A stretch of 33,909 nt of DNA from Desulfonatronospira sp. (GTDB lineage Bacteria > Desulfobacterota > Desulfovibrionia > Desulfovibrionales > Desulfonatronovibrionaceae), in assembly GCA_007125075.1 (NCBI GenBank), contig SLDX01000147.1:1-33909 (forward strand). The letters are read 5' to 3'. Made by a program: the position numbers and the translations under genes. Under the pieces are notes generated by a model. The model ran no database searches. It was not told where the DNA came from and was given only the letters and a program-made list of their open reading frames with translations. Positions 15,978 through 30,171 of this stretch are shown piece by piece. Every line of letters starts with the position of its first letter. Positions within the stretch are counted from its first letter, which is position 1.

Positions 15978-16298
15978 CCTGAATCGTGTAGTCATTTTTT
16001 TAGCCTGATTGACCCGGCAGGTTCCGTTGTTTGGCCGAACAGTCGTAAACTGTCTGAGCGACTTTATCACGCCAGCGGCGTGACTAGTCAAAATCCTTTA
16101 ACCCTCTGAGTTTATACATATAACAAATCATACTCTTCAGCAGAATGTCAGCTCAGGCACAACTGGAATTTTGATTTAGTCTCTCACGCCATGGCGTGAG
16201 AGCGAGTCCCGCACTTACTTTTGAAATTTCTATTCATTCCATGACTGAAGCTGCGGGAAAGTAAGTGCGGGACATCGGAACCTGTTGTACGGATTCAG
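15978..16298. repeat. Mosaic nested-palindrome intergenic element, copy 2 (both ends present)
   Basis: A 321-bp element in the 593-bp divergent gap between infA and the M48 gene. Left end CCTGAATCGTG (15978) and right end GTACGGATTCAG (to 16298) are imperfect terminal inverted repeats. Internal parts are CAGGTTCCG (16018-16026) with its partner CGGAACCTG (16276-16284), a TCACGCC-AGC-GGCGTGA hairpin (16067-16083), module B (16087-16155), a perfect 20-bp palindrome centred on CATG (16182-16201), and hairpin B with a perfect 14-bp stem (16208-16221 with 16258-16271). No gene is seen in the remaining flanks (15863-15977, 16299-16396). Confidence 0.88.
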
Positions 16299-16396
16299 CA
16301 CCTCTTACTTGCCTTGAATAAAGGTTTGCTGTAAAATTTTTTTTGAAATAATCCAGAAGAAATAAGCCATTGTATTGATAAAGTTACTGTAAGCTA

Positions 16397-17725: not shown

Positions 17726-17900
17726 CCTGAATCCATGAAGTAATTTTTGTAGCCTGACTGCCCCTGGAGGTTTCGGGTTTTGGCCGAACGGTGGTAAACT
17801 GCCCGAGCCACTTGGACAGACTTGATCACAATCCATTAACCACATGAAACAGTTCATAATAAAATCAGACTCTTCAGCAGAGTGTGCTGCCTCATCCTAT
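17726..17900. repeat. Mosaic intergenic element, copy 3 (degenerate, left half)
   Basis: It starts CCTGAATCCATGAAG ten bp after the M48 stop. It shares the left region with copy 2 (GGCCGAAC, GGTAAACTG, GAGC) and a decayed module B with ACTCTTCAGCAG near 17870. No hairpin B or right terminus is present. The remaining 17901-18072 has no gene. Confidence 0.7.
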
Positions 17901-18014
17901 ATTGATCGATTGCAGACTTTGAGGTGTTTCGACATACTTTTTTTGCCGCAGAACCGCTGATAAATTTTTATAAAATGCTGAATCTATGCTTAATGAAAAC
18001 GTGTCGGCTTCACA

Positions 18015-23006: not shown

Positions 23007-23130
23007 CCTGAATCCGTGTAAACAAATTGAAGCCAGATTGCCCCTGCAGGTTTCGGGGTTTGGTCCCGCGCTTACTTTTGAAATTTCTATTCACTCCCAT
23101 GACTGTAGCAGCTAGAAAGTAAATGCGGCA
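23007..23130. repeat. Mosaic intergenic element, copy 4 (decayed hairpin)
   Basis: Left end CCTGAATCCGTG (23007), then CTGCAGGTTTCGGGG, and a hairpin B whose arms (23065-23078 with 23116-23128) now carry mismatches. The right terminus is lost. It lies in the 354-bp gap between the DedA start and the UppP-like 3' end. Confidence 0.75.
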
Positions 23131-23157
23131 TCTGAGCGACGTTCACTGGGGTGATCT

Positions 23158-23268
23158 GTCCTCAGTCTTCTGTCTGCCACGCATCCCAGCATGGTCTTCT
23201 GTCTTCTGTCTGAGCCTGCCACGCTTTTAGCGTGGTCCTCTGTCCTCTGTCCTCTGCCTTCTGTCCTC
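23158..23268. repeat. 7-bp tandem repeat tract (CTTCTGT/CCTCTGT) with embedded hairpin
   Basis: Degenerate tandem units of CTTCTGT or CCTCTGT surround a perfect hairpin CCACGCT-TTT-AGCGTGG (23219-23235). The final unit abuts the stop codon of the UppP-like gene (23268-23270). It may be slippage-prone low-complexity DNA, or a 3' structure for that gene. Confidence 0.75.
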
Positions 23269-24131
23269 TAAATCGGCAGGTCCAGAATCCCGGCTAAAAT
23301 GGCCACAGCCAAAACCCAGACATAAAAAGAAAAAACTTTAAGCCTGGCCCGGTAAAGAAAATAGACCACCAGCTTCAGTGAGACTATGCCCACCAGAGCC
23401 GCGACTATAAATCCGACCGCCAACGCCCCGAAATCAAGCCCCTGCATACCCCCGAGACTTCTGACCTCCAGGCTTTGAAGCAGAGTGGCCGCCAGGATTG
23501 TGGGGATGGCCAGAAAAAAACTGTATTCAGCTGCCCAGCGTCTCTTAAGGCCGGTAAAAAGGGCAAAGACAATAGTCATGGCGCTTCGCGACAGGCCGGG
23601 CATAAGAGCCAGGCCCTGGGCCAGACCTATTACTCCGGCCACTCCAGGATTGATTTTTTTCAAGCTTCTGCGCCTTGGTTTGAGTCGATCGGTCCACCAC
23701 AAAAGCAGGCCGGTCAGGATAAGGGTGACTGCAACCATTTCCGGAGTGGCAAAGATATGTTGAAAAGCACTTTTGAAAGACAGACCCAGTATTCCTGTAC
23801 ACAGCACTGAAAACATGCCCAGCAGAAAAAGCCGGGGATAAAGACCGAAAGAACCGTCACCCTTTTTTCCGGCCCATCTTACGGACTGCTGAATCAGCTT
23901 GATACAGAACACCTTGAGGCTGACCCAGAAGACCACGACTATAGAAATCAAGGTACCGACATGAACAACCAGGTCAAAGAGGATCATTTCCGGGGAATCG
24001 GGTGCGGGCAGAGGATGATCGCTTCGGATCAGCCAATGCTGGACCAGGACCAGATGAGCTGTGGAGCTCACCGGCAAAAACATAAAAACACCCTGGACAG
24101 CACCGAGCAGTGCGGCGATCCAAAGACTCAT
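23268..24131 (-). CDS. uppP: Undecaprenyl-diphosphatase (UppP/BacA)-family membrane protein with altered catalytic motif
   Basis: A 287-residue multi-pass protein of the BacA/UppP family, which dephosphorylates undecaprenyl diphosphate at the inner membrane. The FLPVSSTAHL motif (18-27, with His 26 matching E. coli H30) and PGLSRSAMT (178-186, Ser 181/Arg 182) are kept. The (E/Q)xxxE motif reads QGVFM: E. coli E17 is Gln 13, which the family tolerates, but E21 is Met 17 (codon ATG), which is unexpected. Length is about 10-15 residues above E. coli BacA. Activity or substrate may differ. It follows cbiD by 60 bp on the same strand and precedes a DedA gene. Confidence 0.88.
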   Translation of the reverse strand: MSLWIAALLGAVQGVFMFLPVSSTAHLVLVQHWLIRSDHPLPAPDSPEMILFDLVVHVGTLISIVVVFWVSLKVFCIKLIQQSVRWAGKKGDGSFGLYPRLFLLGMFSVLCTGILGLSFKSAFQHIFATPEMVAVTLILTGLLLWWTDRLKPRRRSLKKINPGVAGVIGLAQGLALMPGLSRSAMTIVFALFTGLKRRWAAEYSFFLAIPTILAATLLQSLEVRSLGGMQGLDFGALAVGFIVAALVGIVSLKLVVYFLYRARLKVFSFYVWVLAVAILAGILDLPI

Positions 24132-27243: not shown

Positions 27244-28632
27244 TCATCCGAAGGAAGCTTCCTGATATTTTCTGCAGGCTGCTGCAAAACAGCCGGATGA
27301 GCCTGGAAAACTTAAAAAATGAAGATGAGCGTAGCTGCCCAGACAATTGCCTTTCAGCCAGCCCGGACAGGATCTTTGCAGCCCGTTTTTGTCCGTTGCT
27401 CCGTAAACCTGCTGAACCGGGCCCATGGATTCTTTTTCCCGCAAACTGGAGTAATGAAATTCATGTCCCCGGAACATGCTTTCTTTGTTGCCCAAAGGAG
27501 TATGTCTCAACATTCTTATTTCCCTGTAGCCCAGGGAGGATCTTTTCGCCTGCATCGTTGTCCTGAAAGGAAACACGCCGGCCATGGTATGGATCTTCCC
27601 CTGCAGATCCTCAAGATCACGGCACAGATACATAAACCCGCCGCATTCAGCATACACCGGCATGCCCGAAGCGCAGACACTTTGTATCTGTGCCAGCATG
27701 TTCGAATTTCCTGAAAGCACATCTGCACGAAGTTCAGGATACCCTCCTCCAAAATAAAGACCCTGAATATCTTCAGGCAAAAAATCGTCCTCAAGCGGGG
27801 AAAAAAACACTGTCTCACAACCGCTGCTGCGCAAAAGATCAAGATTGTCCGGGTAATAAAAGCAGAACGCTTTATCTGCGGCTACTCCAATCCGGACGTC
27901 CGGTTCCGGAATATGCCTGTCTGGAGGACGACCGGCAGGAATTTCCGGCAGATTGTGTATAAGGTCATCCAGATCGATATTACTTTCTACAAGACCGGCC
28001 AGAGCATCTATAGTGTCTTTATTCAGAACATAGTCCTGTGCCGAAATAAGCCCCAGGTGCCTTGAAGGAATCTTTATCCCTGATTCTCTTGGAATTCCTC
28101 CCAGCAGCTTGATCCCCGGCACTGCGGATAAAGAACCTCGCAGATAATCCAGATGTCTTTTGCTGCCGATATTGTTGGCTACAATTCCGCAAAAATTCAG
28201 ATTAGGATCAAATTCAATAAAACCTTTGACCAGCGCGGCAAAACTGCGGGACATCTTTGAGGCGTCCACAACCAGCAGGACTGGCAGACCCAGCAGTTTA
28301 GCCATCTGGGCTGTGGACCCGGCTTCCGATGTGCCGTCCACTCCATCAAAGAGACCCATGACCCCCTCAACCACAGCCACATGAGCGCTCTGGCAGGAAG
28401 ATGAAAATATTTCCGTATTGACCCTGCTGGAAAGCATCCATCCATCCAGATTGCGGCTGGCCCGGCCGGTGATCCGGGAATGATGGCCGGGGTCGATAAA
28501 ATCCGGGCCGATCTTGAAAGGTGCAACCTTAAGCCTTCTGCGGGTCAAAGCTGCCAGCAGCCCCAGAGAAAGTGTCGTCTTGCCGCTTCCGCTGGCCGGA
28601 GCGGCTATTACCAGTCCTTTGATCGTTTGCAT
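27244..28632 (-). CDS. cbiA: Cobyrinate a,c-diamide synthase CbiA (CobB)
   Basis: A 462-residue glutamine-dependent amidotransferase that amidates the a and c carboxylates of cobyrinate. The N-terminal P-loop APASGSGKTT is at 11-20. KIGPDFIDPGHHSRITG, EGVMGLFDGVDG and GLYFGGGYPEL are typical. The class I glutaminase-like domain has the nucleophile Cys 330 in AECGGFMYLC and SYAHLHF near the C-terminus. The start is ATG 28632. It is convergent with the EamA gene (34-bp gap). Repeat copy 5 begins 14 bp upstream, so its promoter may lie inside or beyond the element. Confidence 0.96.
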   Translation of the reverse strand: MQTIKGLVIAAPASGSGKTTLSLGLLAALTRRRLKVAPFKIGPDFIDPGHHSRITGRASRNLDGWMLSSRVNTEIFSSSCQSAHVAVVEGVMGLFDGVDGTSEAGSTAQMAKLLGLPVLLVVDASKMSRSFAALVKGFIEFDPNLNFCGIVANNIGSKRHLDYLRGSLSAVPGIKLLGGIPRESGIKIPSRHLGLISAQDYVLNKDTIDALAGLVESNIDLDDLIHNLPEIPAGRPPDRHIPEPDVRIGVAADKAFCFYYPDNLDLLRSSGCETVFFSPLEDDFLPEDIQGLYFGGGYPELRADVLSGNSNMLAQIQSVCASGMPVYAECGGFMYLCRDLEDLQGKIHTMAGVFPFRTTMQAKRSSLGYREIRMLRHTPLGNKESMFRGHEFHYSSLREKESMGPVQQVYGATDKNGLQRSCPGWLKGNCLGSYAHLHFLSFPGSSGCFAAACRKYQEASFG

Positions 28633-28646
28633 TCTTAAAATTTACT

Positions 28647-28805
28647 CCTGAATCCGTGAAATCATTTTTTGCAGCCTGATTGCCCATGCAGGTTCCGGGG
28701 GTTTGGTCCGGCACCTGCTTTTAGCAAATGTTAATCTTTCCATGTGCTTTGCTGGCAGGATTAGAAGTAGGTGCCGGATTTCGGAACCTGTTGTACGGAT
28801 TCAGG
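28647..28805. repeat. Compact, complete nested-palindrome element, copy 5
   Basis: A 159-bp element with perfect 11-bp terminal inverted repeats CCTGAATCCGT (28647-28657) and ACGGATTCAGG (28795-28805). Nested inside are CAGGTTCCG/CGGAACCTG (28689-28697 with 28782-28790), a 14-bp arm with one mismatch (28707-28720 with 28765-28778), and AGCAAA/TTTGCT at the tip (28723-28728 with 28748-28753). The whole element can fold into one long interrupted hairpin. It carries no gene. Confidence 0.9.
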
Positions 28806-28920: not shown

Positions 28921-30171
28921 CTACTCTTTTTCCCTGAATATTTTTGCGCCCACTGCCTGGAGTTTTTTTTCCATGGCCTCATATCCGCGGTCCAGATGGT
29001 AAATCCTGAGCACCTCGGTCCTGCCACTGGCCTTCAGACCGGCTAGAACCAGACCTGCACTCGCCCGTAAATCCGAAGCCATAACCGGAGCTCCAACCAG
29101 ATCCGCTCCTCCCCTGATCACAGCGTTTTGCCCGCTGAGCCTTATTCTGGCGCCCATACGATTGAGCTCCAGAACATGCATGAACCTGTTTTCAAAAATA
29201 GTTTCCCTGATTGTCCCTGTACCTTCGGCCACGCACATGAGAGCCATGATCTGGGCCTGCATATCAGTGGGAAAGCCTGGATAGGGAAGAGTAACCACAT
29301 CCACCCCTCTCAGGGAATCACCGTTTTCGACATATATATCTTCTGCATCGTCCCATATGTGTACGCCCATTTCCAGGAATTTGGCTATTACTGAATCCAG
29401 GGTGTTTGGAGGATAATTGGTCAGAACAAGATTGCCTCCGGTTATGGCCGCTGCGGCCATATAGGTTCCGGCCTCGATACGATCCGACATGACCCTGTAT
29501 CTGCACCCTTTTAACGAATCTACTCCCTGAATTCGGACCATACTGGTTCCCTGACCGCTGATTCTGGCTCCACAGGTGTTCAAAAATCCGGCCAGATCAG
29601 ATATTTCAGGCTCTCTGGCTGCGTTTTCCAGAATGGTTTCCCCCTGAGCCAGGCATGCGGCCATGAGCAGATTTTCAGTGCCTCCCACCGTGGCCAGATC
29701 AAAGTTAATATGCGCCCCTCTTAATCGATTGCACCAGCCCACGATGTAACCGGAATCCAGCTCAAAAGAAGCTCCCATTTTTTCCAGGGCCCTTAAATGC
29801 TGATCAACTGGACGGGAACCGATGGCGCATCCCCCGGGCAGAGCGACCTTTGCTTTTCCCAGTCTGGCCAGAAGCGGACCCAGACAGAGTACAGAAGCCC
29901 TCATGGTCCGGACAAGATCATAGGGCGCTTCAGGCGTAAGGTTCCCCGGACTGATGACCACATTGTCTCCGTCAAAGTCGGCCCTGCATCCCAAAAGGGT
30001 CAAAAGCCTCAGTGTGGTGTGGATATCTTTCAGTCTGGGCACGTTTTCCAGAACAACATCTGTATCAGCCATGATCGAAGCTATAAGCACGGGCAGGGAA
30101 GCATTCTTGGAACCGCTGATCCGGATTTTTCCAGCAAGCCTGATTCCGCCCTCTATTACCAGTTTTTCCAT
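28921..30171 (-). CDS. murA: UDP-N-acetylglucosamine 1-carboxyvinyltransferase
   Basis: A 416-residue MurA, which transfers enolpyruvate from PEP to UDP-GlcNAc in the first committed step of peptidoglycan synthesis. [18 protein letters not shown] is the N-terminal signature. The catalytic Cys 115 is in [16 protein letters not shown]; a Cys here predicts the fosfomycin-sensitive form. The length matches E. coli MurA (419). ATG 30171 is preceded by AAGGCAG. A promoter candidate lies about 85 bp upstream in the divergent gap with paaK. Confidence 0.97.

Follow-up and report, generated by a model that had tools for sequence, protein, structure and literature searches.

Miniature transposon-like elements with exchangeable interiors and a structured core in Desulfonatronospira

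Introduction

The window analysed here is an entire contig of 33,909 bp from a Desulfonatronospira genome of 2.17 Mb in 149 contigs. Five intergenic loci in it begin with a similar sequence, and in the last of them almost the whole locus is palindromic. This raises the question of what kind of element spreads between these genes and what keeps its palindromes paired. A first-pass annotation of the sequence had proposed either a miniature mobile element, of the MITE or of the REP type, or a family of structured RNA elements. In the usual view MITEs are transposon debris, in which the ends give rise to a hairpin as a by-product. Here we analysed the ends, the insertion sites and the interiors of the elements in the window, in the host genome and in related bacteria.

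Results

The window holds five related shells

All five loci were recovered, at positions 859, 15979, 17726, 23007 and 28647. The left end is exact at 859, 23007 and 28647, has one mismatch at 17726 and reads CCTGAATCGTG at 15979. Copy 5 (28647-28805, + strand), classed as a type I element, has perfect 11-bp terminal inverted repeats as annotated, CCTGAATCCGT at 28647-28657 on the + strand and its counterpart at 28795-28805 on the - strand. It is made of three nested palindromes: these ends, an inner shell pair formed by the arms CAGGTTCCG (28689-28697, +) and CGGAACCTG (28782-28790, -), which are paired in the fold, and a 72-bp module that we call hairpin A (TCCGGCACC...GGTGCCGGA; 28707-28778, +), present in other shells in congeners (positions 61-132 of the query). 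Folded as RNA, the 159 bp reached a minimum free energy of -74.5 kcal/mol (z -7.3), against -46.7 +/- 3.8 for shuffled sequences, none of 200 being as low. In agreement with the annotation, no ORF was found inside. Its description as a complete copy holds for the ends; the element is a derivative form, in which hairpin A replaces the usual core within a complete shell.

The other copies, all on the + strand, combine the same parts differently. Copy 1 (859-1192) has a left shell, hairpin A (919-990), a partial core, a second module named hairpin B and a degraded right end. Copy 2 (15979-16299) retains both ends (the right one at 16289-16299), with a partial core and hairpin B (16208-16275). The inner helix of the structured core was matched by a covariance model, R1, at 988-1078 in copy 1 (E 3.5e-8) and at 16082-16181 in copy 2 (E 5.1e-8). 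Copy 3 (17726-17960) consists of a left shell and a decayed full core (17773-17960; R1, E 0.0017) and misses the right end, and copy 4 (23007-23131) is a truncated element with a left shell and hairpin B (23065-23131).

The genes flanking the window copies are ordinary, encoding an Mrp-type ParA, infA, an M48 peptidase, DUF3568, a VTT protein, BacA, CobB/CbiA and an EPSP-synthase/MurA-type enzyme; copy 5 lies between the CobB/CbiA-type gene (27244-28632, - strand) and the EPSP-synthase/MurA-type gene (28921-30171, - strand). Four tRNA genes, for Thr, Gly, Tyr and Thr, are clustered next to copy 1 at 336-778. A tract at 23150-23270, directly beside the truncated copy 4, consists of simple repeats (CTGTCCTC/TCTTCTGTC) and CCACGC palindromes, and similar tracts flank elements of the congener G002 (L083). 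The contig end (33838-33909) is a TGTCTCTTA-like 9-bp tandem repeat that runs off the contig.

Inside the window the 11-mer with up to two mismatches is not enriched (13 occurrences, 9.1 by chance). Genome-wide, the 159-bp query gave 40 BLAST matches and a query of 330 bp gave 59. When the searches with copy 5, with the longer copy and with the end patterns were combined and neighbours merged, about 59 distinct related sites were counted in 2.17 Mb, a few of which rest on a single end, so the high copy number expected from the window was borne out. In T1Sed10_59 many contigs stop within elements of a second type, type II (contig ends L099, L104, L106 and L110), which suggests that the assembly broke at near-identical copies and understates the true copy number.

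Target duplications, empty sites and a transposase with the same ends

We compared the flank before each complete element with the flank after it, using flanks swapped between elements as control. For type I ends the duplication peaked at exactly 6 bp, with 10 of 53 elements exact and 22 of 53 within one mismatch (expected 0.2 and 1.2). Type II ends (GTAACTATTCACC...GGTGAACAGTTAC), abundant in T1Sed10_59, peaked at exactly 8 bp, 12 of 22 being exact and 17 of 22 within one mismatch (expected 0 and 0.05). The duplications are thus a property of the family; in copy 5 itself none is visible, and its insertion is old because the sister species G004 has an element at the same place. Furthermore, searches of relatives with the joined flanks found empty sites: the L105 site of G001 is contiguous in G002, the L109 site of G002 is contiguous in G005 and G001, and the L189 site of G000 is contiguous in G004. 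Element length in the analysed set ranged from 37 to 520 bp. The loci might instead have been parts of one ancestral segmental duplication; this was contradicted by unrelated flanks, by several copies with target duplications of their own and by the empty sites.

A transposase was found between the same ends in a congener. In G005, type I ends 1673 bp apart enclose a transposase frame broken in two, both parts of which match the IS1380 family (NF033539; 2.4e-71 and 9.2e-16), and a second IS1380-family copy of 1654 bp has the same type I ends and a reading frame that is also broken. The window's genome contained no IS1380-family transposase. The IS1380 member IS1247 (PMC3281130) is 1672 bp long, has ends of 16 bp and duplicates 5 bp of its target. 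IS1380-family elements (IS1247, ISEcp1) resemble the G005 copies in a length of about 1.67 kb, ends of 13-16 bp and a DDE transposase. From this family a duplication of 4-5 bp was expected and the type I elements show 6 bp; size and ends thus fit, with the duplication off by one.

Type II ends are IS66-like. As in IS66-family elements, type II and several distant copies begin with GTAA and have 8-bp duplications, the latter being the length given for ISPpa5a and ISPpa7 (PMC3281130). Nine IS66 copies in G005 (L216, L219-L226), apparently recent, have GTAAGCG ends; an IS66 element with the exact type II ends was not found, and this candidate partner was set aside.

Elements that are intergenic, palindromic and mosaic could also be REP or BIME palindromes spread by a RAYT (TnpA-REP) transposase, which was one branch of the first-pass annotation. 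The window's genome gave no match to the Y1/RAYT transposase family PF01797, which already contradicts this origin for the host, and terminal repeats with fixed-length target duplications are features of MITEs, so that we regard a RAYT origin as highly improbable. By every criterion tested the elements are MITEs: besides the duplications and the empty sites, an insertion sequence with the same ends was found, represented by the two broken IS1380-family copies and not by a TnpA-REP. IS1380 transposase would be what mobilises them, acting in trans.

Interiors are replaced in place

Four kinds of module fill the type I shells in varied combinations: a core of roughly 190 nt, the two hairpins A and B (the latter TCCCGCACTTAC...GTAAGTGCGGGA) and small palindromes of CACGCC. 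Some shells are minimal, at 37-73 bp, and lack them all. In G004, the closest sister species, the site orthologous to copy 5 has flanks of about 90% identity. The shell there is the same, and where copy 5 has hairpin A this 250-bp element has the core. Two other orthologous sites differ likewise, one by length (49 against 136 bp) and one by the presence of hairpin A. Since orthologous sites hold different interiors in the same shell, the interiors have been replaced in place. The simplest route would be recombination, or template switching, by way of the arms that the shells share. Two stand-alone GCACTTACTTTT hairpins at L091 1280-1570 in G002 indicate that units like hairpin B exist outside any shell too.

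In-place swapping and the coreless shells would also suit ordinary MITEs whose palindromes are kept at the DNA level only and have no function as RNA or single strand. Long palindromes are prone to template switching and to repair of cruciforms, either of which would homogenise the arms. This reading makes a statement about strands that can be set against the core, as described below.

The core has a covarying fold

The core, found in most full-size relatives, measures about 190 nt and is built on GAGCGA...GAGCGA. In the aligned type I and type II cores the stretches AAACTGTYTGAGCGAC and CTTGGAGYGAGTYTTTRCG are invariant, and their consensus fold has 49 pairs, 19 of which changed on both sides. 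In a wider alignment of 36 cores with other genera included, double changes occurred in 42 of 46 pairs and 88.7% of the cells were paired, against 69.0% after shuffling. The covariation score was 0.507, compared with 0.184 +/- 0.010 for the control and at most 0.231 when the partner was slid by one column.

The layout comprises an outer helix, an internal junction in which 5'-GA(NN)GA-3' faces 5'-GA(NN)GA-3', and a second helix. The middle bases of the junction covary: at the middle position of the facing GAGCGA segments the 36 sequences have G-C (18), A-U (6), C-G (6), G-U (4) and U-G (1), and the flanking GA / GA are near constant. In the junction, two ordinary pairs may be enclosed by two tandem sheared G-A steps; the pairing is demonstrated by the covariation, and the sheared geometry is putative.

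For the core of most full-size relatives, the structured-RNA branch of the first-pass annotation is thus supported by covariation, as well as by the strand asymmetry described below. The covariance model that it had called for was built, and R1 matched the core in copies 1, 2 and 3; the core was also found in congeners and in other genera. A known RNA family was rejected as its identity: Rfam gave only tRNAs at gathering score in the window and, with cores of several genera as queries, nothing plausible up to an E of 1. A simple intrinsic terminator, considered on sequence grounds, was rejected as well, the T-run lying 7-9 nt past the inner helix.

One strand of the core appears to be selected

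If double-stranded DNA alone were maintained, changes to G-U and to A-C would be equally frequent, and an excess of G-U indicates structural selection on one strand. On a tree of 35 cores, in counts that take in unpaired opposite columns, there were 18 changes from Watson-Crick pairs to G-U and 2 to A-C, along with 27 double changes. With the fold made without wobble pairs, the asymmetry was 37 to 7 unique contexts in type I and 23 to 9 in type II. Compared with its complement, the core strand had the lower RNA energy in all 19 type I elements and in 17 of the 19 of type II. On these comparisons one core strand appears to be selected, as RNA or as single-stranded DNA. Homogenisation of arms is blind to strand, yet the changes are strongly biased towards G-U, and the unpaired segments CTGTCTGA and GAGTTTTT rank among the most conserved core columns; both observations argue against palindromes kept at the DNA level only, which we consider unlikely.

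RNA would be the simplest reading of the asymmetry, and single-stranded DNA, with G-T wobble, would give the same. The core might accordingly be a recognition structure in single-stranded DNA, for replication, transposition or recombination. DNA hairpins tolerate G-T wobble as well, and copy 5 folds as DNA far from chance (z -6.1). Furthermore, where the neighbouring genes are in tandem, the core strand runs opposite to them in 14 of 19 cases, so that readthrough mRNA would carry the weaker strand; this argues against plain readthrough mRNA as the carrier. On the other side, the IS1380, IS66 and ISL3 families have DDE transposases that act on double-stranded ends, and no HUH/Y1 transposase is present in the window's genome. 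We consider a single-stranded DNA structure improbable, and RNA from the strand starting CTGTCTGAGCGA would be the most likely form of the core.

The core occurs within different transposon ends

An exact core pattern, scanned against 84,980 species genomes, matched only Desulfonatronospira MAGs from soda-lake sediments. With the covariance model the core was detected in at least 13 of 247 genomes, among them all seven congeners and six others of the order. A second model added at least 8 genomes from other families of the phylum, two of which have short forms with weak scores, or at least 9 of 395 when the genome of the window is counted as well; these counts are lower bounds, the best candidates per genome having been scored. 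Type I shells with core were found in G009 and G015 and type II shells with core in G017. In G003 and G006 the core lies within the ends GGCTCYTCGAC...TGTGGATTTT, which we take to resemble those of ISL3. Two of the copies from other families, L272 and L273, have IS66-like ends of the GTAA type with exact 8-bp duplications, ATAAAAAG and GATATTTT. The homologous core thus sits in at least two and probably three unrelated kinds of ends.

In G022 and G040 (L248 702-1127, L249 704-1138, L245 823-1222) the covariance model found cores lying side by side in tandem pairs, with no transposon ends recognised around them. For G022, G037 and G040, gene context as judged by ORF layout alone was tried as a clue to a partner gene and discarded. 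A short hairpin, ACAAACTGTCTGAGCGAAGCGAGTTTTTGT, corresponding to the core junction minus the second helix, occurs in two genomes of another family (L277 1501-1580 and L278 1501-1572). Spread on plasmids or viruses was dismissed, as plasmids gave no core match and viral contigs no exact short form. A literature search for the core motif, largely outside subscription journals, found no description, the core strings appearing only as unrelated strings; papers on REP superfamilies and triplex repeats did not mention Desulfo- hosts.

Discussion

We think it probable that these loci are non-autonomous shells mobilised by IS1380, carrying a structured core that is kept as a folded single strand, exchanging their interiors and sharing the core with other ends. 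The outer shell would be recognised in trans by an IS1380-family transposase, producing the 6-bp duplications, and the core, hairpin A, hairpin B and the CACGCC palindromes would be exchanged between copies at fixed sites, possibly through the shared shell arms. IS66-like and ISL3-like ends would have acquired homologous cores. As for function, the most likely role might be, speculatively, to buffer insertion between genes by providing a defined structure or a processing site in the joined transcript. Evidence against this explanation as a whole comes from the 5-bp duplication of IS1247 compared with 6 bp here, from the broken state of both IS1380 copies of G005 and the absence of any in the window's genome, from copy 5, in which no target duplication is visible, and from the orientation of the core strand, which mostly opposes tandem genes; G-T wobble in single-stranded DNA would also produce the strand asymmetry.

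Several known systems share part of these properties. IS-derived MITEs (RUP, NEMIS/Correia, ERIC, Nezha, MITEAba12) are likewise short, gene-less and intergenic, with terminal inverted repeats, target duplications and ends shared with an insertion sequence; what sets the present elements apart is the interior, a covarying structure conserved in unrelated transposon ends and in different bacterial families. BIME and BOX mosaic repeats also have interchangeable palindromic modules, whereas the present elements lack a RAYT and have fixed-length target duplications around the whole unit. Mosaics of TIMEs arise from pairs of TIMEs that bracket other DNA, not from exchange of interiors. Like the present elements, TIMEs are non-autonomous inverted-repeat elements that generate mosaics, but they have Tn3-family ends (PMC4133298). 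In the Bacillus cereus group, the bcr elements (bcr1-bcr18; PMC3446304 and references there) include the MITE-like bcr1-3, many copies that are transcribed, and bcr10 and bcr18, which are predicted RNA elements. Their host lineage is unrelated, and one core in several end types is not reported for them in the literature consulted.

In comparison with the usual view of MITEs, what is unusual here, as judged from the alignments, is that the core is better conserved than the surrounding ends, covaries over many genera and is strand-asymmetric. The ends that carry it must be handled by different transposases, and the presence of a homologous core in IS66-like and ISL3-like ends suggests that the core acts as cargo outliving its vehicle. 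It is possible, although we would put it at somewhat below an even chance, that the core is a previously undescribed mobile noncoding RNA found across the Desulfobacterota, a selfish cargo with the GA(NN)GA / GA(NN)GA junction that has repeatedly changed vehicle between IS1380-like, IS66-like and ISL3-like ends. The comparisons of the same sites in sister species show directly how mosaic palindromes arise, by replacement of the interior in place after insertion, and that some bacterial mini-transposons may be vehicles for structured RNA is now a testable idea.
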